Part shown: positions 12,843 to 43,301 of the stretch, in pieces
How the letters are laid out: the number at the start of each line of letters is the position of its first letter
How positions within the stretch are numbered: the stretch's first letter is position 1
Assembly (NCBI RefSeq): GCF_029937855.1
Contig: NZ_JAPYPC010000031.1
Coordinates: 1 to 43,426 of the forward strand
Reading direction: 5' to 3'
DNA length: 43,426 nucleotides
DNA from: Christiangramia sp.
GTDB taxonomy: Bacteria; Bacteroidota; Bacteroidia; Flavobacteriales; Flavobacteriaceae
Notes under the pieces: model-generated
The model's database searches: none
What the model was told of the DNA's origin: nothing
Seen by the model: only the letters and a program-made list of their open reading frames with translations
Program-made: the position numbers and the translations under genes

Positions 12843-13709
12843 TTAAAATCCCATCCCGGTATCCAGCCCTCTTTTGATCACTTGTTTTATTAAGTCTTTG
12901 GCTATTTTACTAGCCATATTCGTACTAAGCTGTACCGTCTTATCCATCAGTTTTAAACCACTGGATATTTCTTTCATTCCAATACCTTTCGCATATTGGC
13001 TAATTTCTCCAATAATTTTTCCTCCAGTCATGGACCGGTGTACCTCACTCCCTTTTAAATTAGCTCCTTTGTATTCAAACCGAAAACCCTGTAGTTGATT
13101 TGATTTATTGATGGAAGGAATTACCTGTACATCACATGACTTCATTTTACTGATATATTCATCCAGTGATTTAGGCCGGGTTTCCATTACTTTATTATTG
13201 ATATGTCTAATGGCCAGTCGCTGCCAGTTCAATTCTTTTAGTTTTTCCTGTTGTACATCCCGAACCCTGGTAAGCCCTAGCTCCTTGGCTACATTGTCTG
13301 CTGCGATCTGACTTCGTTTTCCAATGAAACTATCATTATAAGCTTTTCCGTCAAAACCAATCCGGTTCACATATACATGCACATGGGTATGTGCCTTGTC
13401 CCGGTGAACAAAAGCAATGGCCTGCCTGTTCTTTAATTCCATTTCTTTGAGGAATCTGCTGGTGATCTCTTTAAGTTGCGCTTTGCTCATCTCCTGTCCA
13501 TCCTTAACGGTGGGACTTAATATAAAACTGAGGGTATTCTGGGTGCACCGCTCATTCTGTGACTGGATGATCTTAAATTCTTCTGTGATCTCTTTCGGGG
13601 TCTCTCCGGCCAGCTGGTCTTTATAAATCACTTCGGCCTCTTTTTCCTGGTTCCATCCATATTCTATAGAGGCACCGGTGCTAGCTATAGAATGTCCTTT
13701 CCCAATCAT
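12843..13709 (-). CDS. Relaxase / mobilization nuclease (MobA/VirD2-like)
   Basis: Nicks oriT and leads the single strand into a recipient, using a helper conjugation system. Relaxase features are an N-terminal GKGHS start with Tyr17 in SIEYGWN as a candidate nicking tyrosine, and the three-histidine metal motif HTHVHVYVNRI with His107, His109 and His111. It has 288 residues, short but typical of Bacteroidota mobilizable elements (often 300-430), and lacks a long C-terminal helicase or primase part. Its ATG overlaps the MobC stop by 4 bases, so the two are translationally coupled. The putative oriT lies just upstream of mobC. Confidence 0.9.
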   Translation of the reverse strand: MIGKGHSIASTGASIEYGWNQEKEAEVIYKDQLAGETPKEITEEFKIIQSQNERCTQNTLSFILSPTVKDGQEMSKAQLKEITSRFLKEMELKNRQAIAFVHRDKAHTHVHVYVNRIGFDGKAYNDSFIGKRSQIAADNVAKELGLTRVRDVQQEKLKELNWQRLAIRHINNKVMETRPKSLDEYISKMKSCDVQVIPSINKSNQLQGFRFEYKGANLKGSEVHRSMTGGKIIGEISQYAKGIGMKEISSGLKLMDKTVQLSTNMASKIAKDLIKQVIKRGLDTGMGF

Positions 13710-14002
13710 TTTTTGAAGCTTTTTAAATGGTTCCTGATTTCTTCAGCTAAATGCTGTACTTCCTTTGACAACTGGGGATTACTTTTTTTAAACATATTGC
13801 TGATCCGGCTAAAATTGTTTTTATACTGAACCAGTAGCTGATAGCATTCTAATTGCTCTGGGGTAATGCGTTCGACCATATTGATCTTAAAAGCAGTAGA
13901 ACGCAAATATTCAGAAAGGGAAATTCCCGCCCTGGCTGCTCTTTTTTTGAGTAGCTTTTTCTCGTAGATCGAGCAGCGTATCTGGATGTATTCCCGTTTC
14001 AT
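13706..14002 (-). CDS. MobC-like relaxosome accessory protein
   Basis: Small DNA-binding protein that helps the relaxase act at oriT. The 98 residues start with MKREYIQIRCSIYEKKLL and AARAGISLSEYLRSTAF, a ribbon-helix-helix pattern common in MobC/BmgB-like proteins. A helical C terminus follows. It overlaps the relaxase start by 4 bases and starts 34 bases from the oriT-like inverted repeat, the usual arrangement. Assignment rests on pattern and context. Confidence 0.82.
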   Translation of the reverse strand: MKREYIQIRCSIYEKKLLKKRAARAGISLSEYLRSTAFKINMVERITPEQLECYQLLVQYKNNFSRISNMFKKSNPQLSKEVQHLAEEIRNHLKSFKK

Positions 14003-14035
14003 TTTTAATATTTATTTTCTTTGCAACCTCCGGGC

Positions 14036-14076
14036 GCAAAGCAAGATTGTCATGACAATGACACATCTTGCTTTGC
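14036..14076. other. Putative origin of transfer (oriT)
   Basis: Perfect 12-bp inverted repeat: GCAAAGCAAGAT at 14036-14047 and ATCTTGCTTTGC at 14065-14076, with a 17-base spacer. A second perfect palindrome, ATTGTCATGACAAT at 14046-14059, overlaps the left arm and spacer. The structure sits in the 118-base gap between primase and mobC, where oriT is expected. There is no T-tract, so a terminator is unlikely. The nick site was not identified. Confidence 0.65.
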
Positions 14077-14120
14077 CTTCCAAAATGAAATCTCCCTTGT
14101 GGCATTTACTTTTTTTAAGG

Positions 14121-15017
14121 TTATTTTTTATTCAATTCTTTCATTACTATCTTAGTTGAAATCAGCTTTTCATTCAGGTCTTTATATCCCTGAAATAGCT
14201 CATTTCTATCTTTTGTGTTCTTATAATCCTGAAGTAGCTTTTTTCTATTTTTATTTCCAGGCAGATCATTGTCGAGGTACAGATCAACTTTCGTATAACT
14301 TTTAAAATGGGGAGTGACTTTTTGTAAAAAAGCTAAAGAGTTCAAAACAACGATATCTGAATTTATAAATTCACCGGGAAATAATTCAGCCAGGGATAAC
14401 AAATCAAACATGCCTTCCAAAAGAATCAAGCGATCTGAATGTGTCTTTAGATAGGTATAGGTTTTTGGTGAACTGGATCCTTTGAAATATCTATTCCGAA
14501 GTTCCCATCCCCCTTCGTTGTTTTGCAGACCCAAAGCGAAATACTCCTTCCCATTTAATCGATACCAGACTTCTTTACAATATTGTACTGCTATGTAGAT
14601 CGAAATTTTCCTGGAGCCTAAATATTGAATCAATCCCGGATGTTGTATTGGCTTCACTTCAAACACTAAAATTTTTGAAGCAGTCCTCTTTTTTAAAATG
14701 GGCTGCTGAAAAGAAAAAGAAAGCTGCTTATTGTTTAGAAATTCTAATGCTTGTTTTACCGAACACTTTTGTATTGCTACAATCAAATCCAGCACGTTTC
14801 CGCCCGTTCCTATTCCATGGTCATACCATCGGTTCAATTTTAGAGACACCTTGAAAGAGGCCTGCGTTTCTGACCGTAGGGGACTCAGAAACCAGGCTTC
14901 TTTTTCCGCTATCCTACTTGGAAAGTGCCCTAGTTTTGCGAGTGTTTTCACGATGCAAATACTACGGGCTCTTTCGCAGGTAAGTCCTGGTATGTTCCTT
15001 TTTTCTTTCATCAGCAT
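14121..15017 (-). CDS. TOPRIM-domain DNA primase of mobilizable element (PrmN1-like)
   Basis: Probably primes replication of the excised or transferred element. The N-terminal part (about 20-110) resembles the DnaG zinc-binding region in layout (LAKLGHFP, WFLSPLRSE, WYDHGIGTGGNVLDLI) but lacks the usual zinc cysteines and histidines. The C-terminal TOPRIM domain has EGMFD as the acidic motif and LDNDLPGNK as the DxD motif. The frame opens earlier with GTG at 15038, but ATG codons at 15017 and 15011 are more likely starts. The product is about 298 residues. NBU1 encodes a primase beside its relaxase in the same order. It reads away from the octamer cluster at 15071-15288. Confidence 0.85.
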   Translation of the reverse strand: MLMKEKRNIPGLTCERARSICIVKTLAKLGHFPSRIAEKEAWFLSPLRSETQASFKVSLKLNRWYDHGIGTGGNVLDLIVAIQKCSVKQALEFLNNKQLSFSFQQPILKKRTASKILVFEVKPIQHPGLIQYLGSRKISIYIAVQYCKEVWYRLNGKEYFALGLQNNEGGWELRNRYFKGSSSPKTYTYLKTHSDRLILLEGMFDLLSLAELFPGEFINSDIVVLNSLAFLQKVTPHFKSYTKVDLYLDNDLPGNKNRKKLLQDYKNTKDRNELFQGYKDLNEKLISTKIVMKELNKK

Positions 15018-15070
15018 ATTATTTGACTTAAAATGCACCTATATGAGTATTTTCTTGTTTTCTCAATTTT

Positions 15071-15288
15071 TGTCATCATTTTTATTTTTGATGCCACTTT
15101 GATGACAAAACGATGACAGTCTTAAGTCTTACTATTACTGGTCTAAGAAGATTCTGTCATCATTCATCAAAAAATGAAGAAATGATTAATCTTATTTTCT
15201 CAGCAGTATCCAAAAAAATGATGAAACGATGCCAACTGACGTAACCTCCCGAAAAACCAGGAGTTTCCGTGTCATCACTTTGTCATCA
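15071..15288. repeat. Cluster of TGTCATCA octamers, iteron-like
   Basis: Five exact copies of TGTCATCA or its complement TGATGACA occur at 15071-15078 (+), 15100-15107 (-), 15155-15162 (+), 15270-15277 (+) and 15281-15288 (+), with a 7/8 match at 15111-15118 (-). Two neighbouring pairs are spaced by 11 bp, about one helical turn. The cluster fills the non-coding gap between primase and helicase. It is a candidate replication origin or operator of the element. Confidence 0.7.
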
Positions 15289-15317
15289 ATTCATCATTCC
15301 ACTTCAATTTCTGTGAT

Positions 15318-16526
15318 TCAGTCCGAATGCTGATCTTCAAAATTATCCAGGATAAAATTTTTATTTATAGTGAAATAGCGTCCTTTGGTATTCGATAGGT
15401 TGGAGCTGCCATCCTCCCAAAGCGTAAACTTTTCATAACGGTTCGAGTTGGATATATTTTCAAGATTCCAGTCTTGCTTTAGAATTTTCCTAATCTGGGT
15501 CAAATCTGTCCTTAGCCTTGTTTTACTAAGTGCATTTAACGCGTCCATGGGGCATAAATTTATTTCCTTAAGATCATGCTCTTCCATGACCATTAGTAAA
15601 ATACTGGCCAACTCCTTCTCTACTCGGTTTCGGTTATTCTGAACCAGCTTGAATAGAGCTGGAGTTTCAATTTGTTTGGGGGTAAACCACATTCGGGTTT
15701 GATGTGTACTATGTAAAGAACGGTGCTGAAGGAAGTGTAAAAAAGCTGGGATCTCTTTTTCCAGGGCTTCTAAAAATCCGGTATTTTCCTTTTTAATCGA
15801 AGGAATCTTTAATACCCAGAACCGGGTTTCATGATGATCTATTTTTATGAAATTCTCTTCATTATTGCTACAAAGGATAAACTTCCCAAAAAATTCTACT
15901 TCCCGCTTGTCTTTGCCCTTAGCCTCCAGCTTGTTGAAATTTGTCGTGCTTAAATATTTGATACGCTCGGTCAGTTCTTCTTTATTGAATAAGACCTCGT
16001 CAATACAAATCAGTAATTTATTAGCCCAGTCAGCATTAAACTGACTGCTAAAACTGTCATTGGTAAGATAGGTCAGGTTATTTTCAAAGATCTGTTTCAG
16101 CCATTTTAAAAATGTACTTTTTCCGGTAGATCGCTCCCGGGATACCAAACACAAAATGGGAAGTATTTGAGTAGGTTTAGTAAATAATAATTGCAGGTAA
16201 TCTAATCCCAACTCATAATGATCCCCGAAAATATGTTCTATAAACTCCCGAGATTTGGGACAGCTTCCTTCCACAATCTGATGACTTAGGGGAGAATAAA
16301 TATTGTAAAAATTATGATAGGTAGATTGAAAGTTTAAATGGCTTGGAATACAGGTAAATCCATCAAATTTCGGAATGCTGGCCAGAAATGTTTTGCCGTG
16401 GTCCTGCCGAATGGTTTCAATGTTCCATGACACCAGAATTTCATTTCCATTCCCGTTAATAGTAGGAGCCTCTACAAGTTTAAAATATTGTGTGCCTACT
16501 CGTATATATTCAATCTCAGTCTTCAT
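15318..16526 (-). CDS. Primase-helicase family ATPase (DUF5906-like, SF3-type)
   Basis: Likely replicative helicase of the element. The 402-residue protein has a Walker A region SRERSTGKSTF (about 140-150), Walker B LLICIDEVL, and a following KFILCSNNEENFIKIDHHETRFW stretch with the sensor asparagines and arginine typical of SF3/DUF5906 helicases. The N-terminal 100 residues and the C-terminal helical part are not recognised. With the TOPRIM primase downstream and the octamer cluster between them it makes a plausible small replication module. Mobile elements in Bacteroidota often carry such a protein beside the integrase. Confidence 0.82.
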   Translation of the reverse strand: MKTEIEYIRVGTQYFKLVEAPTINGNGNEILVSWNIETIRQDHGKTFLASIPKFDGFTCIPSHLNFQSTYHNFYNIYSPLSHQIVEGSCPKSREFIEHIFGDHYELGLDYLQLLFTKPTQILPILCLVSRERSTGKSTFLKWLKQIFENNLTYLTNDSFSSQFNADWANKLLICIDEVLFNKEELTERIKYLSTTNFNKLEAKGKDKREVEFFGKFILCSNNEENFIKIDHHETRFWVLKIPSIKKENTGFLEALEKEIPAFLHFLQHRSLHSTHQTRMWFTPKQIETPALFKLVQNNRNRVEKELASILLMVMEEHDLKEINLCPMDALNALSKTRLRTDLTQIRKILKQDWNLENISNSNRYEKFTLWEDGSSNLSNTKGRYFTINKNFILDNFEDQHSD

Positions 16527-34245: not shown

Positions 34246-36021
34246 TCAATTCATAGATTCCAGCGTTTGCTGTATTCCTTGAACGTTAATTTTTGCGATT
34301 TCTTGTAATTCGTCCACACTTCCTTGCTCAATAAATTCGTCAGGAATTCCTAGTACTTCTACATCTCCCTTATAATCATGCTTTGAAGCATATTCTAAAA
34401 TTGCAGATCCAAAACCTCCATTCTTAACTCCGTCTTCCACAGTGATAATTTTAGAAAACTTCCTGAAAATTTTATTCAGAATTTTCCTATCCAGGGGCTT
34501 TACGAACTTCATATCATAATGAGCGATCTTTGCCTGTTTACTTTTTTCAAGATTTTCAATAGCGTTTTTTACATTTCCCGCCATATTGCCAATGCTCAAA
34601 ACTGCAATTTCCGATCCTTGCTTTAAACACGCTGCTTCTCCAATTTCAATCTTTTTAAATGGCAACTTCCAATCTTTTAACACACCTCTCCCTCTTGGGT
34701 ACCGAATAATCATGGGAGAATCCAATCCCAACTGCGCGGTATAAAGCAAATTTCTAAGTTCTACTTCATTTCTGGGGGCGGCAATGATAAGATTGGGAAT
34801 AGGCCTGGCATAAGCGAGGTCAAAAACACCATGATGGGTTGCGCCGTCTTCTCCCACAAGTCCCGCTCGATCCAGACAAAACACTACCGGCAATTTTTGA
34901 AGAGCCACATCGTGGATTAGTTGATCGTAAGCTCTTTGTAAAAAGGTGGAGTAAATAGCACAAAAAACAATAAATCCCTGTGTAGCCATTCCTGCGGAAA
35001 GCGTAACGGCGTGTTGTTCGGCAATCCCAACATCAAAAGCACGCTCCGGAAATGCCTCCATCATATATTTCAGGGAACTACCGGTAGGCATTGCGGGGGT
35101 AATCCCAATGATCTTTTCGTTCTTTTTAGCCAGCTCTACAAGGCTAAGCCCAAAAACATCCTGGTATTTCAGCGGAAGACCATCGGTATCATATTTCAGT
35201 AATTCCCCAGTTTCTGGCTCAAATTTACCTGGGGCATGATACTTCACCTGGTCTTCTTCAGCCTTTTTAAGCCCTTTTCCCTTTTTGGTGATTACATGAA
35301 GGAATTTAGGTCCCTTGATTTGCTTCATTTTCCTAAGGATATCCAAAAGACCTTCAAGATCATGACCATCAACCGGACCAAAATATTTAAAATTGAGCGC
35401 CTCAATTATATTATCGCGGGCAGGTTTATGCCCAACCCTCGCTTTGGTAAGGTATTCCTTTAAAGCGCCAACACTGGGATCTATGCCTATAGCATTATCG
35501 TTAAGAATTACCAGTAAATTTGCTTTGGTTACCCCGGCATGATTCAAGCCTTCAAAAGCCATCCCACTGGCAATAGAGGCGTCCCCAATTACAGCTATGT
35601 GTTGTTTTCCAGTCTCCCCTTTTAAATTTGAGGCTATGGCCATCCCCAGTGCCGCCGAAATAGAAGTAGAAGAGTGTCCCACCCCAAAAGTATCATAATC
35701 ACTTTCTTCCCGTTTTGGAAATCCGCTTAAGCCATTTAACTGCCTGTTGGTATCAAAAATATCCCTTCTTCCTGTTAGAATCTTATGCCCATAAGCCTGG
35801 TGGCCAACGTCCCATACCAGAAGGTCTTCAGGCGTATTAAAGATATAATGTAAAGCCACGGTAAGCTCCACAACGCCGAGACTCGCACCAAGGTGTCCTT
35901 CTTTAGTAGCTACGATGTCAATTATGAATTTACGAAGTTCCTGCGCGAGTTGCTGCAGTTCTTTTGGATCCAGCTTTCTTAACTCTTCAGGACTGTGTAT
36001 ATTTTTAAGAATCTCGGCCAT
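34246..36021 (-). CDS. dxs: 1-deoxy-D-xylulose-5-phosphate synthase
   Basis: Condenses pyruvate with glyceraldehyde 3-phosphate, the first step of the non-mevalonate isoprenoid pathway, using thiamine diphosphate. It has GHLGASLGVVELT (about 42-54), GHSSTS at 115-120, the cofactor motif GDASIASG at 146-153 with NDN at 174-176, and the transketolase pyrimidine domain with EQHAVT and DRAGLVGEDG. At 591 residues it is slightly short, as usual in Bacteroidota. ATG 36021 is preferred over 36045 because a TAACTTTG box lies between them, just before 36021. It is divergent from tadA. Confidence 0.96.
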   Translation of the reverse strand: MAEILKNIHSPEELRKLDPKELQQLAQELRKFIIDIVATKEGHLGASLGVVELTVALHYIFNTPEDLLVWDVGHQAYGHKILTGRRDIFDTNRQLNGLSGFPKREESDYDTFGVGHSSTSISAALGMAIASNLKGETGKQHIAVIGDASIASGMAFEGLNHAGVTKANLLVILNDNAIGIDPSVGALKEYLTKARVGHKPARDNIIEALNFKYFGPVDGHDLEGLLDILRKMKQIKGPKFLHVITKKGKGLKKAEEDQVKYHAPGKFEPETGELLKYDTDGLPLKYQDVFGLSLVELAKKNEKIIGITPAMPTGSSLKYMMEAFPERAFDVGIAEQHAVTLSAGMATQGFIVFCAIYSTFLQRAYDQLIHDVALQKLPVVFCLDRAGLVGEDGATHHGVFDLAYARPIPNLIIAAPRNEVELRNLLYTAQLGLDSPMIIRYPRGRGVLKDWKLPFKKIEIGEAACLKQGSEIAVLSIGNMAGNVKNAIENLEKSKQAKIAHYDMKFVKPLDRKILNKIFRKFSKIITVEDGVKNGGFGSAILEYASKHDYKGDVEVLGIPDEFIEQGSVDELQEIAKINVQGIQQTLESMN

Positions 36022-36027
36022 ACCCAA

Positions 36028-36035
36028 CAAAGTTA
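36028..36035 (-). promoter_or_regulatory. -7 box of dxs
   Basis: TAACTTTG on the minus strand matches TAnnTTTG exactly and ends 6 bases before ATG 36021, giving a nearly leaderless transcript. No -33 TTG is at the standard spacing. Confidence 0.5.
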
Positions 36036-36112
36036 CATTATGCAAATTGAATTCTGATTAAGACATTCCAAAGGAATCCCAAAATTTATATCTTTCCTGA
36101 AAATTTTAAAAG

Positions 36113-36562
36113 ATGCTGTCTCCCTTTAACGATGAATATTTTATGAAAAAAGCTTTGGAAGAAGCTGAATTAGCTTTCGAAAAAGGGGAAATTCCGGTAG
36201 GGGTTGTGGTAGTTATAAATGACCGTATCATCGCCCGCGGCCACAATCTTACCGAAACACTGAATGATGTAACTGCTCATGCTGAAATGCAGGCCATCAC
36301 TGCGGCCGCAAATTTTCTGGGTGGAAAGTACTTACAAAAATGCACCATGTATATCACTCTGGAACCCTGCCAGATGTGTGCCGGAGCACTTTATTGGAGT
36401 CAGATCTCGAAAATTGTGTTTGGAGCTGAAGATTCACAAAGGGGCTATAGAAAATTCGGTGTACAGCTCCATCCAAAAACCGAAGTAAAATCAGGAGTTT
36501 TGGAAGAAGAAGCCTCCTCTTTGTTAAAACGTTTTTTTATCGAAAAGCGGAATTTGAATTAG
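36113..36562 (+). CDS. tadA: tRNA-specific adenosine deaminase
   Basis: Converts the wobble adenosine to inosine in tRNA-Arg(ACG). Zinc-deaminase residues are intact: His56 and catalytic Glu58 in HAEMQA, Cys86 and Cys89 in PCQMC. The N-terminal MKKALEEAELAFEKGEIPVG and the HNLTE segment are TadA features. At 149 residues it is full length. A TATCTTTC box, one base from the consensus, lies at 36089-36096. Confidence 0.94.
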   Translation: MLSPFNDEYFMKKALEEAELAFEKGEIPVGVVVVINDRIIARGHNLTETLNDVTAHAEMQAITAAANFLGGKYLQKCTMYITLEPCQMCAGALYWSQISKIVFGAEDSQRGYRKFGVQLHPKTEVKSGVLEEEASSLLKRFFIEKRNLN

Positions 36563-36633: not shown

Positions 36634-36941
36634 GAGATTTCTCCCTACGGTCGAAATGACAAAATATCTCGACAGGTTCACGGCATCACCCTCAACTAGT
36701 TTAAGGATCTCTACAGATGCTGAAATAAATTCAGCATGACGAGGATTAAAAGTATATGACACGGTGAACGAAGTGAAGCAGTCTCTATGTAAGAGATTCC
36801 TTCGCTACGCTTGGAATGACGTGAAAAAACGTACTCACCTTGTAAAAGAAAATCCTCACGTTCCCGGAATGACAAGGTCACCCTGAACTCGTTTCAGGGT
36901 CTCTAGCTAAAGATGCTGAAACTAGTTCAGCATGACGAGGA
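36634..36941. repeat. Dispersed intergenic repeats, two families
   Basis: The 389-base gap after tadA holds no gene but is filled with repeats. Family 1, pattern GA(G/A)ATTnCT...GAATGAC, occurs at 36634-36660, 36793-36820 and 36848-36873. Family 2 occurs at 36686-36745 and 36878-36941 and carries two small hairpins; in the second copy these are CCCTGAA/TTCAGGG at 36881-36899 and TGCTGAA/TTCAGCA at 36914-36932. The hairpins share a CTGAA/TTCAG core. A related hairpin lies at 43353-43368. Confidence 0.7.
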
Positions 36942-36951
36942 AGAACGAAAA

Positions 36952-37734
36952 TTATTTCAATTCTTCAGGTAATTCAGTTACTTTGATATAATCTACATAG
37001 AATTTATCTGGAAGGGCTTCATCTTTAATTTCAGCTCCACCTAAATTTCCGCCTACCGCCATATTGATCAAAAAATAGAAGTCTTTTCGAAAAGGATAAT
37101 GTTTAGCATCATACTGTTCCGGAGTGAATTTATAAAGCTGCTTATCGTCAACGAAAAATTCGATATAATCTTTAGTCCAGACTGCTTTATATTTATGAAA
37201 ACCTTCTTCAATACCTTCAATTTTCGTCTTTTTTGTATTCACCGTATTTCCATGACTTGCCGGGGTATGTAGTGAAGTAAAAATCATTCCCGGCTCCCGC
37301 CCTATGTATTCCAGAATATCAATTTCACCACTGGCAGGCCAGCTAACCTCGCTAATATCAGTACCCAACATCCATATAGCAGGCCAGAGGCCTTTGCCTG
37401 TAGCTACTTTTGCCCCTACTTCTATAACTCCAAACGTAAATTCCACATTATCTTTCGAATTTATCTTTCCGGAATAATATTGATTATCTTTTTTCACGGC
37501 GGTGATCACCAGATTTCCACCCTTTACCTCCACATAATCGCGGTCATATATCTGTCTTTCATTATTTCCCCAACCACACAAATTTGGGCAACCATCCCCT
37601 TCTTCATAATTCCAGATACTCGTATCCAGGCTATCTCCATTAAAATCCTCCTGAAATATCACTTTTTCCTGAGCTTTTATTGAGTTGACAATTCCGAAGA
37701 ATAAACTTAAAAATAGAACTGGATAACTTTTCAT
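36952..37734 (-). CDS. GH16 beta-glucanase (laminarinase-like)
   Basis: Endo-acting beta-1,3-glucanase, probably on laminarin. A signal peptide ends near NSIKAQ (about residue 22). The catalytic motif GEIDILE carries nucleophile Glu137 and acid/base Glu142, and WPAIWMLG precedes it as in laminarinases. At 260 residues the single GH16 domain is complete. Its ATG shares one base with the stop of the GH3 fragment, so it was the last gene of an operon. The operon now begins in two gene fragments, so expression of this intact enzyme is uncertain. Confidence 0.93.
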   Translation of the reverse strand: MKSYPVLFLSLFFGIVNSIKAQEKVIFQEDFNGDSLDTSIWNYEEGDGCPNLCGWGNNERQIYDRDYVEVKGGNLVITAVKKDNQYYSGKINSKDNVEFTFGVIEVGAKVATGKGLWPAIWMLGTDISEVSWPASGEIDILEYIGREPGMIFTSLHTPASHGNTVNTKKTKIEGIEEGFHKYKAVWTKDYIEFFVDDKQLYKFTPEQYDAKHYPFRKDFYFLINMAVGGNLGGAEIKDEALPDKFYVDYIKVTELPEELK

Positions 37735-38936
37735 TATTTGCTGAAATTAAATTTTACGGTTTGTACTTCCTCTGAATTTCCACCTACCATAAGTTCAAAC
37801 TCTCCATCTTCTGCTTCCCATTTTCCTGAAGCGGTATAAAATGTAAGCATTTCTTCAGTAATATTAAATGTAACAGTTTTGGTTTCTCCCGGTTCAAGCT
37901 CCACCAATTCAAAGCCTTTTAATTCTTTGATGGGCCGGGCAATGCTTGCCACAAGATCATGCAAAGAAAGTTGCACAACTTCTTTTCCCTTTACCTCTCC
38001 GGTATTAGTTATTCGTACACTTAAACTAATTTCTCCTCCTTCATTTAAATTTTCAGAAGAAAGTTTTGGTGCTCCATACTCAAAATTGGTATAACTAAGT
38101 CCGAAACCAAAAGGATAAAGAGGTCCGTTTTCAATATCTGTATAATGAGAATATGTCACATGTTGATCGTTAGATGGCCTGCCCGTGCTCATTCGATTGT
38201 AATATAAAGGTTCCTGCCCTACAGCTCTTGGAAAAGAAACCGGTAGCTTACCGGAAGGATTATATTTTCCGGTAAGAACATCTGCAATTGCATTTCCACT
38301 TTCAGACCCCAGTTGCCAGGTCTCAACAATAGCAGGAATATTTTCAGAAGCCCAGCTTAATTCCAGCGGTCTTCCGTTTATAAGTACGAGAACAATATTT
38401 TTATTGACCTTTTGAACTTCTTTCAGCAACTCCATCTGCAATCCGGCAAGGCCTATATTTACCTGACTTCTTCCTTCTCCAGACTGGAATGCATCCTCTC
38501 CAAGCGCCATAATCACCAATTCCGCTTCTTTTGCTTTATTCACCGCCTCAGGAATTCCAGATCTGTCGGTCTTGTTGATTTCCAATGGCATTAAAAAGCT
38601 GCGTTCTCCTTCTCCCAATGTTACTCCTTTTGCATAGGTAATTTCAGCATCTAAATTGGCATTCTTTAATCCTTCAAGTACTGAAGCTGCGGAATTGCTT
38701 TCTCCCTGCGCTCTCCAGTTCCCAATTGGAGTATCTTTATCATCGGCCAATGGACCGATCACCGCTATTTTTTTTACCGAAGATTTTATCGGCAAAAGAT
38801 GACCTTCATTCTTTAAAAGAACGATTGATTTTTTCGCAATATCACGTGCAATTTCCTGATGTTCAGAATAAGGAACTTCAAGATCTGCATTCATATATCG
38901 ATAAGGATTCTCAAATAACCCTAATTTGAACTTTAA
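37734..38936 (-). pseudogene. GH3 beta-glucosidase, C-terminal half only
   Basis: The open frame from 38894 gives 386 residues matching the second half of BglX-type GH3 enzymes: IARDIAKKSIVLLKNEGHLLP, GEDAFQSGEGRSQVNI, the EEWAL-like sandwich region, PLYPFGFGLSYTNFEY and the C-terminal fibronectin-like domain. GH3-like sequence continues upstream without a start codon (LKFKLGLFENPYRYM, about 38892-38936). The N-terminal barrel of about 370 residues with the nucleophile Asp and any signal peptide is missing, so the product cannot be an active glucosidase. It directly abuts and overlaps the truncated regulator. Confidence 0.88.
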
Positions 38937-39486
38937 AGAGACCCTCTCCTACCAGTTGAAAAAACAATTCTCCCTCATGATTGTAAATTCCCGAGACTGG
39001 TTTCCCCAGGGCATTATCCATCATATACATTGAATCTTTTAAAGGATCGTAATAATAGATGCCGCCAAAACTTCGAAATAGAATAAAACCATCGATGATT
39101 TCAATGTCCCAAAACTGTTCTCCATCCCCAATCCCATTAGGAAATCTGGACACCAGACTGGTATATTTTAAGACACCAAGTTCATTCCTCTCCCAATAAC
39201 CAGCTTCCATATAAGCACCGGTATAAATACGCTCTCCAACCACTTTGAGAGATCTAACTACCGTATTATTTGGAACAGGATATAGATGCCATTTTTCGCC
39301 ATTATATTCCAGTAAACCGGTACTATTGGCAAAATACAGATTTCGATGTACGTCCTGGGCAATCATCCAATTTTGGTTACCTGCCGAATATTTATTTGGG
39401 TCATAATTCGCAACCGGTGGCAATTCCTGCGTCCGCGTTCCGAAAAAACAAAAAAGAAGAAATAGTAAAATAAGTTTTTTACTCAA
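38911..39486 (-). pseudogene. Propeller/triple-tyrosine-type LuxR regulator, N-terminal fragment
   Basis: These 191 residues match the start of the roughly 900-residue exported sensor-regulators of flavobacteria: signal peptide (LILLFLLFCFFG), then NQNWMIAQDVHRNLYFANSTGLLEYNGEKW and further beta-propeller repeats (YTGAYMEAGYWERNELG, YTSLV). The frame then runs into GH3 DNA and stops after GEGLFKVQIRVI. The remaining propeller blades, the Y_Y_Y domain, the membrane helix and the LuxR domain are absent. The first codon is TTG at 39486, possibly a mutated ATG. Such regulators often control laminarin loci, which matches the GH16 and GH3 next to it. Confidence 0.82.
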
Positions 39487-39683: not shown

Positions 39684-42600
39684 ATGAGCATTATAAAAGA
39701 CCTATACAAAAATAAAATTTCCAAAGATTTAAGCTTTTTAACCCTATCCCTACTTTTCACAATTTTTTCAATCCAGGCACAAGAAGGACTTTCGAACAGT
39801 AAGGAGAAGGTGCATTCAGTCTATATTACCTCCAATACGGCGTTGAGAAGTAATGAATCCAATCAGAAAATACTAAATCAGATCGTGGAAGCTTCAAAAA
39901 AAGGAGATTCTGCTAGCCTTGTGATCGTAGGTAACATCGTACCTAAAAAAGGATTCCCGGATAAGGATAATGGTCGTGACCAGGTAGAACAGGATCTTCA
40001 GAAAAACTTACTCGATCTTATAGAGGATTTTAAGGGGAATATCATTTTTACTCCGGGCTATAATGAGTGGCAGGATGACGCTCCGGATAATATAGATGAT
40101 CTTGAATCCTTTTTACAGGATAATTCCAGGGCAAAATTTTGGCCTAACGATGGTTGCCCTATTGAGAGTGAGAGCCTGAGTGAAGAGGTGCAGCTTATAA
40201 TGATAGATTCTCAATGGTATCTTGAAGATTGGGATGAGCATCCCTACATTAATAATAAATGTGAAATTAAAACCCGGGTCCAGTTTAGGGAAGCATTTAA
40301 TGATGAACTGGAGGATAGCCAGCTGAAAACTGTAATTGTGGCTGTTCACCACCCCGTGATGACCCAAACAAAATTAGGTTTTTTTCAGAAAATCATAGGT
40401 GCAGGAAGCCAGACCCGGAGAAACCCTCAGCTTAAACAACTGATGGGAACTCTTGAGGCACTGGCCAGGCAGTATAATGATGTTATTTTTGTATCTGGGA
40501 ACGACCAAAATCTGCAATATGTTCAGGACGATAATGTAGAACAAATCATAGCCGGAGTTACTGAAAATCCTGCAAAGGCAAAACCCGAGAAAGACAATGG
40601 GGATTTCGCTACTTACGACCTTGGTTATGCTAAAATAAATATTAATAAAGATGGAAGTTCCAATGCAGAATTTTTTAAAGTTTTGCCTTCAGGTTCAGAA
40701 AAGATTTTCAATGCCCAAATCTCCAGAGAACGTTTAAGCCTGGACGAAGTTGAATGGCCAGAAACCCGGCTTGGGAAAACTACCATGGCTTCTGTGTACA
40801 CCGAAGAAGAAACAGATAAAGATGGCCTTTTCAAGGCGATCTGGGGAGAACATTACCGTCCTTTATATAGCAGAAAATTTGAATTCCCGGTTTTGTACCT
40901 GGATACAATTCCGGGAGATCTGGAAATTTTAGGTGCAGGAGGAGGCCACCAATCCAGATCTTTAGGCTTTGTTGATGAAGATGGACATGAATACACGATG
41001 CGGGCTCTTAAAAAAAGCGCCTTACAGTTTCTACAAACTACTGTAGTAACTACTCATTATGTCGAAGATTTCCTGGAAAACACCGTAGCTGAAAGATACG
41101 TTCAGGATTTTTATACCACTGCATTTCCCTACGGAACCTTTCCTGCCGGAAGGTTTATGGATGAATTGAACATTTTTCACCCAAATTCAAGTCTTTATTA
41201 TGTTCCTAAACAGGAAGCATTGGGGATTTATAATGAAGATTATGGCGATGAATTATATATGTTTGAAGCACATATAGGTGGTGAAAATAAAGATCTTGAA
41301 ATCTTTGGAGGTGCTGAGGATATTTTAAATACCTCAGATCTTTTACTCGATATGCGGGAAACCAAAGATGTGTATGTAGATGAAGACATGTTTATTAGGG
41401 CAAGGTTACTTGATATGTTGCTTGGAGACTGGGATAGACACGAAGGCCAGTATGAATGGGCCGAATTTGAAGATAAAAACGGCAGGAAAAAGTACCTTCC
41501 CATTGCCAAAGATCGTGATCAGGTATTTCCTAAAACCGATGGTTTTGCATTATCCCTCTTGCGAATTGGCTTTCCGGACTTTAGAGCGATGGAAGAATAT
41601 AGTCCTATGGTGAAAAGACCAAAATGGTTCAATATTGCCGGTTATCCACTGGACAAGGCATTTATTAGAAATGCAGAATGGGAAGATTGGCAAAAACAAG
41701 TTAATTATATTCAGCAAAATATTACTGATGAGGTAATTCAGGAAGCTTTCAATGTTTTACCTGAAGATTTAACTGAGGATGCTTATGTAGCTGAAATAAA
41801 AAAGACCATGAAAGCTCGTAGAGGCAACCTTGAAAAAATTGCAAGGGATTATTATAAGCACCTAGCAGAGTTTGATATGTTCACAGGAACCGAAGATGAC
41901 GATAAGTTTATAATTACAAGAAAACCAAATGGAATAACCACTATCAACCTGAAAAATAAAGATGGTGAAGATCTTGCTGAAAAATCTTATAATTCAGATA
42001 ATACGAGAGAAGTTTGGGTGTATGGTCTGGATGGAGACGATGAATTTCAAATTACTGGAAAAGGTTCCAGTTTGGTTCCACTTAAAGTAATAGGTGGCGA
42101 AGAAAACGACATTTATGATTTTCAAAATACAAGACGCGCCAAATTATATGACTATAAGAGCAAGGAAAATACTATTAAAACTCCGGGCGCACGTAAAATG
42201 CTGGTAGATTCTTATGAGATCAATAATTATGATCCCTATAAAAAGAAAATAAGACAATATACTTTCTTTCCGAGTGCCGATTTTAATTCAGACCAGGGTT
42301 TTAGCCTTGGAGTGAAAAACACCTATACCACGAAAGGACTCGTTAGGAATCCTTTTACTGCCAGGCATAGTTTATCTGCTAATTATTTTTTCGCTACGAC
42401 CGGATTCGATGTAAAATACTCAGGTGAGTTTGCACATATTTTTTACAACTGGAATCTGGGGCTTGATGCCTATTATTCCAGTCCGAATTTTGTCATCAAC
42501 TATTTTGGAACAGGGAACGAAACAGAATACGACCAGGATGAAGTAAGTAAAGATTATAACCGGGTGAAAATTCAGCAGTGGAGATTTGCGCCTTCGTTAA

Positions 42601-43301
42601 TTTATCGAAAAAATGAGAAGGTAAAATTCAATATTAAGCCCATCATTGAATCTCTGGAAATTACTTATGATGAAGGAAGGTTTATAGCCGATGCTTTTAA
42701 TCCGTCCAACGATATATTTGAAAGTCAGCTTTACGCGGGGGGAGAATTAAATTATAACTACTTTAATAAAGACCGTATTGCATTCCCTTCCAGAGGTATC
42801 GAGTTTGATCTTATTGCAGGTTATAAAACCAATATTGACGATCACGATAACAAATTTGGGTATGTAAGCCCAATGCTTTCCTTAAATTATCCGCTTCACG
42901 AAAGTGGATTCGCCGCTATCGCTACTAAAATAGGAGGTAAAGCCATTCTTGGAGATAATTATGAATTCTATCACGCCGCTACCCTGGGAGGTGGAAACAG
43001 AAACAGCCTGAGAGGCTATAGAAATGAACGTTTCAACGGTAAATATGCCTTTTATCAGAATTTTGATATAAGAAGTGGGATCACCCAATTTAGAACAGAT
43101 TTTGTTCCGGTAAGAGTGGGAGCTAGTTTAGGTTTTGACTATGGTAGGGTTTGGGTAGAAGAAGATGACAGCAATGACTGGCACACCAACTATGGTGGAT
43201 CTATTTTTATAAACGCTTTTAAAGCCTTCACAGGAAACATTGGATATTACGTAGGTGATGAAGGAGGCCGAATAAATTTCACCTTTAATTTCGATTTCTA
43301 A
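39684..43301 (+). CDS. Outer-membrane protein: degenerate metallophosphoesterase, kinase-like middle domain, Omp85 barrel
   Basis: A 1205-residue exported protein (hydrophobic signal segment about 17-32, FSIQAQ). Residues 45-340 match the metallophosphoesterase domain of large Bacteroidota surface proteins (NDGCPIE, MIDSQWYLEDWDEHP), but the metal motifs are altered: SN at 50-51, GN at 83-84, GYNE at 125-128 and GNDQ at 272-275, with only HH at 222-223 kept. Residues 400-640 have a Gly-rich segment (417-421), YTMRALKK (437-444), GDWDRH (581-586) and AKDRDQVF (608-615). The C terminus, about 840-1205, is a beta-barrel with the Omp85 motif LRGY at 1109-1112 and a final Phe. The phosphoesterase part is probably inactive. 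Function unknown. Confidence 0.85.
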   Translation: MSIIKDLYKNKISKDLSFLTLSLLFTIFSIQAQEGLSNSKEKVHSVYITSNTALRSNESNQKILNQIVEASKKGDSASLVIVGNIVPKKGFPDKDNGRDQVEQDLQKNLLDLIEDFKGNIIFTPGYNEWQDDAPDNIDDLESFLQDNSRAKFWPNDGCPIESESLSEEVQLIMIDSQWYLEDWDEHPYINNKCEIKTRVQFREAFNDELEDSQLKTVIVAVHHPVMTQTKLGFFQKIIGAGSQTRRNPQLKQLMGTLEALARQYNDVIFVSGNDQNLQYVQDDNVEQIIAGVTENPAKAKPEKDNGDFATYDLGYAKININKDGSSNAEFFKVLPSGSEKIFNAQISRERLSLDEVEWPETRLGKTTMASVYTEEETDKDGLFKAIWGEHYRPLYSRKFEFPVLYLDTIPGDLEILGAGGGHQSRSLGFVDEDGHEYTMRALKKSALQFLQTTVVTTHYVEDFLENTVAERYVQDFYTTAFPYGTFPAGRFMDELNIFHPNSSLYYVPKQEALGIYNEDYGDELYMFEAHIGGENKDLEIFGGAEDILNTSDLLLDMRETKDVYVDEDMFIRARLLDMLLGDWDRHEGQYEWAEFEDKNGRKKYLPIAKDRDQVFPKTDGFALSLLRIGFPDFRAMEEYSPMVKRPKWFNIAGYPLDKAFIRNAEWEDWQKQVNYIQQNITDEVIQEAFNVLPEDLTEDAYVAEIKKTMKARRGNLEKIARDYYKHLAEFDMFTGTEDDDKFIITRKPNGITTINLKNKDGEDLAEKSYNSDNTREVWVYGLDGDDEFQITGKGSSLVPLKVIGGEENDIYDFQNTRRAKLYDYKSKENTIKTPGARKMLVDSYEINNYDPYKKKIRQYTFFPSADFNSDQGFSLGVKNTYTTKGLVRNPFTARHSLSANYFFATTGFDVKYSGEFAHIFYNWNLGLDAYYSSPNFVINYFGTGNETEYDQDEVSKDYNRVKIQQWRFAPSLIYRKNEKVKFNIKPIIESLEITYDEGRFIADAFNPSNDIFESQLYAGGELNYNYFNKDRIAFPSRGIEFDLIAGYKTNIDDHDNKFGYVSPMLSLNYPLHESGFAAIATKIGGKAILGDNYEFYHAATLGGGNRNSLRGYRNERFNGKYAFYQNFDIRSGITQFRTDFVPVRVGASLGFDYGRVWVEEDDSNDWHTNYGGSIFINAFKAFTGNIGYYVGDEGGRINFTFNFDF

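Follow-up and report, generated by a model that had tools for sequence, protein, structure and literature searches.

How does the beginning of a regulator gene come to lie against the end of a GH3 gene, in another reading frame, at a place where related genomes carry an intact PUL? The window, by which we mean the whole stretch of DNA analysed (contig C80, 43,426 bases), belongs to a 3.9-Mb draft assembly of 80 contigs that is 99.89% complete. Laminarin is a main algal storage sugar, and we are highly confident that one deletion of ~12-13 kb gutted the interior of a variant A-type laminarin PUL in this Christiangramia/Gramella genome. The features on which the argument turns are as follows.

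39684..43301, plus strand: flanking anchor, divergent 1205-aa conserved protein adjoining the regulator in 17/17 fetched relatives (orthology)
38911..39486, minus strand: regulator stump, ~187 N-terminal aa of a regulator of ~935 aa, followed by a few codons from the junction and a stop (frame lengths, homology)
38929..38935, minus strand: deletion junction, with putative microhomology TAAAGT(T) common to regulator and GH3 (homology ends and relatives' sequences)
37734..38948, minus strand: GH3 stump, with C-terminal and Fn3-like domains and without the N-terminal catalytic barrel of ~353 aa (Pfam, homology)
36952..37734, minus strand: surviving GH16 (260 aa), orthologous to the gene that ends the intact PUL, EIDILE present (Pfam, BLAST)
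36113..36562, plus strand: flanking anchor, deaminase gene, which we take to be tadA-like, after GH16 in 17/17 fetched relatives (BLAST orthology)
34246..36045, minus strand: flanking anchor, presumably dxs-like, past the tadA-like gene in 17/17 fetched relatives (BLAST orthology)

The junction and the genes around it

On the minus strand, regulator homology runs up to ~38926 and GH3 homology starts from ~38942 in a different frame, with an overlap of 17 nt. Similarity to the regulator ends at residue 185-187 in all 17 relative loci compared, at V186/Q187 of ...GEGLFKVQ (window ~38926), and similarity to GH3 begins at query residue 3 in all 16 loci with a GH3, which corresponds to residue 353-355 of a 754-759-aa enzyme. 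The preliminary description had reported regulator homology through GEGLFKV, with GH3 homology starting close by in another frame, and had read this as a deletion scar. Comparison with the 17 relative loci confirms the observation, and because these loci are syntenic and share the same flanks, they bear out the deletion. The join does fall within the range first given for the scar (38892..38945), but it is better placed at 38926-38942. The genomic context excludes a chance origin of the junction.

The frame at 38911-39486 is a 191-aa N-terminal piece that has no Pfam or NCBIfam match of its own and is 55-72% identical to the regulators of the 17 fetched loci; the full-length regulator of G006, the single copy tested, has a Y_Y_Y domain and a weak C-terminal LuxR-type HTH match just below cut-off. 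The GH3-stump frame (404 open codons) is open from 38948, with its first ATG at 38894 and its stop at 37734-37736. Pfam found the GH3 C-terminal and Fn3-like domains in this piece and no N-terminal barrel (PF00933), whereas a full-length relative has all three. Its top NCBIfam match, under that model's cut-off, was BglX at positions 351-764 of 765. Because all NCBIfam enzyme matches of the GH3 and GH16 pieces stayed below cut-off, the substrate assignment rests on gene order and published work.

The GH16 gene, described earlier as intact, is indeed complete, with EIDILE kept, and it stands in tandem on one strand with the regulator and GH3 stumps. With this GH16 as query, 80 named loci were matched, of which the best 13 were Christiangramia/Gramella and the others Flavobacterium or other Flavobacteriaceae. 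Identity between the window and its relatives is 64-83% for GH16 and 69-83% for GH3 (16/17). The 1205-aa flanking protein had no Pfam match at E <= 0.001. The spacer between the tadA-like gene and GH16 contains a 35-nt repeat in two copies (89%), at window positions 36711-36745 and 36907-36941.

The intact locus in relatives and what the window lacks

Of the 23 other Christiangramia/Gramella genomes searched, 17 provided the locus for comparison, and its gene order is the same in 17/17: divergent 1205-aa-type protein, regulator, SusC, SusD, one more gene, GH16, an optional 290-aa GH16, GH3 (16/17), GH16, tadA, dxs. SusC and SusD were named by Pfam in G006 alone and by BLAST or position in the other loci; the gene after SusD was PKD-like in the sole copy tested. 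The regulator is full length in 17/17 fetched loci and GH3 in 16/17. A regulator fragment was detected in 24/24 genus genomes, the window's own included, with an open frame of 929-973 aa in all 23 others versus 194 aa in the window. Relatives were checked for the same junction, and none of the 23 has a truncated regulator frame.

In the 16 of 17 relatives with a GH3, the DNA between the positions of the two breakpoints measures 11,834-13,610 bp (median 12,824), and this DNA is absent from the window. Missing are SusC, SusD and the gene that follows, a large GH16 of ~550 aa, the GH3 barrel and ~80% of the regulator, and in 7/17 relatives the 290-aa GH16 additionally lies within the missing stretch. 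The earlier guess that SusC/SusD had lain between the breakpoints was right, both being found at this place in 17/17 fetched relatives. The pair is absent at the window locus; two relatives have a divergent pair, and in one both genes are split between frames. The window locus occupies the same chromosomal place and contains orthologous genes to the relatives' intact PUL, with flanks common to 17/17. It holds one GH16 and the C-terminal GH3 half, not two GH16 framing a GH3, and is a PUL remnant, not a working member.

The relatives themselves vary. The optional 290-aa GH16 occurs in L087, L089, L091, L092, L093, L098 and L106; between G003 and G014 this gene is 93% identical, against 87% for GH3 and 56% for SusC, as if recombination had moved the G003 copy. 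A 580-aa frame (L099 of G004, 14562-16304) stands where the other 16 loci have GH3, and in G002 an extra 582-aa frame separates GH16 from GH3. In G013 the large GH16 fell under the 45% identity filter used, and a 376-aa GH16 occupies that place. In the draft locus L106 (G016), SusC and SusD are each split over two frames, either a second decaying PUL copy or sequencing errors. SusC/SusD of G013 (L092, 4919-9596) and of G002 (L097) stand apart: their SusC proteins reach 32-37% identity, both with one another and with the six further genus copies compared; against G014 queries, these two genomes match at 35-36% in SusC and 26-28% in SusD, the G002 SusD match containing one stop, and at 60-89% in regulator and GH3. 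From these sequences, the importer of the G013 and G002 laminarin PULs looks swapped.

The lost genes, the mechanism and the age of the deletion

Searches of the rest of the assembly for the missing genes turned up paralogues but no orthologue. With 12.4 kb of the close relative G011 as query (late regulator to GH3 end), the window's genome was matched at six places, namely at the GH3 stump itself and at five short stretches of paralogous sequence (65-85% identity, of which the longest has 444 bp and 65%); for SusD and the gene that follows it, the search was at the DNA level, inside this query. The 743 aa of the G011 regulator that have no counterpart in the stump gave a single match in the window's genome, a 31% paralogue on C36. 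The SusC of G006 gave 24 matches (best 37%, paralogues) and the divergent SusC of G013 gave 25 (best 36%); apart from short N-terminal matches of <=45%, the closest SusC proteins that the genome has to offer are paralogues of 36-38% identity.

The genome has two GH16 genes in total (C80, C13), the same two at a stricter cut-off, and two GH3 genes at E <= 1e-60 (C80, C36). Two GH16 is not a unique number, since G017 has as many with its locus intact; in the incomplete genomes G010 and G023 the count is one and two, respectively. GH30 (PF02055) occurs in 3/24 genus genomes, including this one. The GH17 model PF00332 was silent in 24/24 genus genomes and in control genomes alike, so presence cannot be judged from it; a passage of PMC4891872 gives one GH17 apiece for two Gramella type strains.

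One other PUL was considered as a replacement and rejected. The PUL on C36 (L103, G000:C36:66500-86400) has GH3, GH43, an esterase, two PF10091 genes and SusC/SusD, and the N-terminal part of its regulator is ~40% identical to the laminarin regulator. Its regulator and GH3 are paralogues (~40% identity) and its content is not laminarin-like; we take it to be a beta-1,2-glucan locus from its appearance. Five other SusC loci were inspected through selected genes of each. Those on C46 (GH26, GH130, a GH5-like gene, then GH30 and esterases), C62 and C78 have a mannan-type, an alpha-glucan-type and a fucose/sulfatase-type look, respectively, and four C25 genes and one C24 gene scanned contained no glycoside hydrolase.

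These searches bear on whether the junction was made in the cell or at the bench. The assembly is a draft in 80 contigs, and a library or culture artefact may lie behind the junction. Nevertheless, we consider it improbable that an assembly or library artefact dropped the interior or misjoined the two halves. The shared sequence predicted at the join is only 6-7 nt, and the assembly has no N there; assembler k-mers are much longer. Furthermore, a misjoin should leave the missing genes as separate contigs, and no orthologue was found on another contig of this nearly complete assembly.

How, then, might a deletion have arisen? The closest regulator match (G006) agrees with the window through TAAAGT and the closest GH3 match (G003) agrees from TAAAGT on; because both reach this motif, we place a putative 6-7 nt microhomology at 38929-38935. 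For a random join, the odds of a shared stretch are ~0.0013-0.0019 for at least 6 nt and 0.0004-0.0006 for at least 7 nt. TAAAGT is found at the regulator site in 2/17 relatives (G006, G001) and at both sites within one genome in 1/16 (G006). When the regulator and GH3 sides of each relative are compared around the join, the longest in-register identity is 2-9 nt, and at the predicted junction columns <=6 nt (n=16), which indicates no long repeat. Inserted DNA at the join, such as an IS, was rejected, since the overlapping homologies leave no space for it; a repeat search on the window is uninformative on repeat- or IS-mediated deletion, since such an event leaves one copy.

Deletions at short microhomology in bacteria are products of illegitimate recombination. 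Our best guess is a short-homology deletion of this kind, with the microhomology read from the sequences of relatives and not from the strain's own parent. The deletion joined regulator codon ~186 to GH3 codon ~355, probably by RecA-independent recombination at the short (6-7 nt) microhomology; with it went the regulator remainder, SusC, SusD and the gene that follows, the large GH16 and the catalytic barrel of GH3. Neither stump can act as a regulator or a glucosidase, and the last GH16 is intact without its cognate importer. Although a single event is the reading we favour, stepwise loss may have left the one visible junction.

We estimated constraint with a branch model on a tree from three flank genes, in which several deep nodes have support <60. 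On the window branch, omega was 0.061 for the GH3 piece (background 0.059; neutrality rejected, 2dlnL 119), 0.063 for the regulator stump (0.064), 0.079 for GH16 (0.053; 2dlnL for the difference 1.59) and 0.020 for dxs (0.043), and omega = 1 was rejected for all four. Unlike GH3, dxs is more constrained than its background. The GH3 omega profile reaches a drop of 3.84 between 0.09 and 0.10, and a linear estimate limits the neutral share of the GH3 window branch to roughly <=4%, an age bound that is rough because synonymous sites are near saturation (with degenerate branch lengths in some taxa) and deep nodes are weak. Since the GH3 stump is still constrained, the deletion is probably young; on the simplest reading, it happened late compared with the divergence of the species. 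The GH3 half may have kept a role, though it lacks the catalytic barrel.

Constraint of this sort can also be read as function. The surviving GH16, perhaps with the C-terminal GH3 piece, could be read from the regulator promoter, free of laminarin control, and the intact, constrained GH16 and the tandem arrangement of stumps and GH16 are in keeping with such remodelling. A recent deletion, however, predicts constraint on a long terminal branch equally well, and the barrel-less GH3 stump is just as constrained as GH16, and we therefore rate remodelling as quite unlikely. An adaptive form of the deletion, in which a 'selfish' importer gave way to a strain limited to secreting a GH16 laminarinase, putatively expressed from the former regulator promoter without laminarin control, and to using or releasing shared products, appears less likely still. 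Least likely of all is a locus that had been incomplete in this lineage from the start, or an ancient loss from which parts persist: the genus does vary (the divergent SusC/SusD of G013 and G002, G004 without GH3 here, the split genes of G016), but the join lies inside two genes that are full length in all (regulator) or 16 of 17 (GH3) fetched relatives, and both stumps are open and neither is relaxed.

Laminarin use and comparison with known systems

In laminarin PUL variant A, a GH3 is framed by two GH16 genes; a section of PMC6298971 states that this variant was first described in G. forsetii and, citing Kabisch et al. 2014, that it is upregulated by laminarin there. According to a passage of PMC4891872, G. 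echinicola and G. portivictoriae have a laminarin-like PUL as well. Because the gene order of our relatives matches variant A, we assign the locus to laminarin. Laminarin uptake via this locus must have been lost, and a PUL without SusC/SusD, regulator and GH3, we infer, cannot work. Complete loss of growth on laminarin is a step further that we likewise infer, since other contigs of the genome still carry a GH16, a complete GH3 and a GH30, and the GH17 model was uninformative. The loss may be strain-specific and not fixed in the species, the comparison covering one genome per species.

The fructan locus, thought earlier to have been kept, is present on the same contig (window 271-12086), with a hybrid sensor, transporter, GH32, SusC, SusD and PfkB kinase. 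Relaxase, Toprim and DUF5906 genes adjoin it (window 12846-16526), which suggests an integrated mobilizable element.

The deletion is an ordinary kind of gene loss, clean and well preserved. A search of titles and abstract openings found no report of such a deletion, which is no proof of absence. A clean, apparently young knock-out whose contig also carries a fructan PUL would offer a null strain made by nature, in which one could study how far marine Flavobacteriia depend on this single PUL and how PUL loss begins. Matches to GH16 and GH3 genes alone could mispredict laminarin use.

The junction resembles known microhomology-associated deletions in its short predicted shared sequence and in homologies that overlap without inserted DNA; it differs in that the mechanism is proposed from one junction and the sequences of relatives. 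Compared with laminarin PUL variant A, the intact relatives have GH16, GH3 and GH16 in order behind SusC/SusD, and the window's GH3 and GH16 pieces and flanks are orthologous to theirs. In contrast to these loci, the interior of the window operon is gone, and an N-terminal regulator stump, a C-terminal GH3 half and the last GH16 are left.
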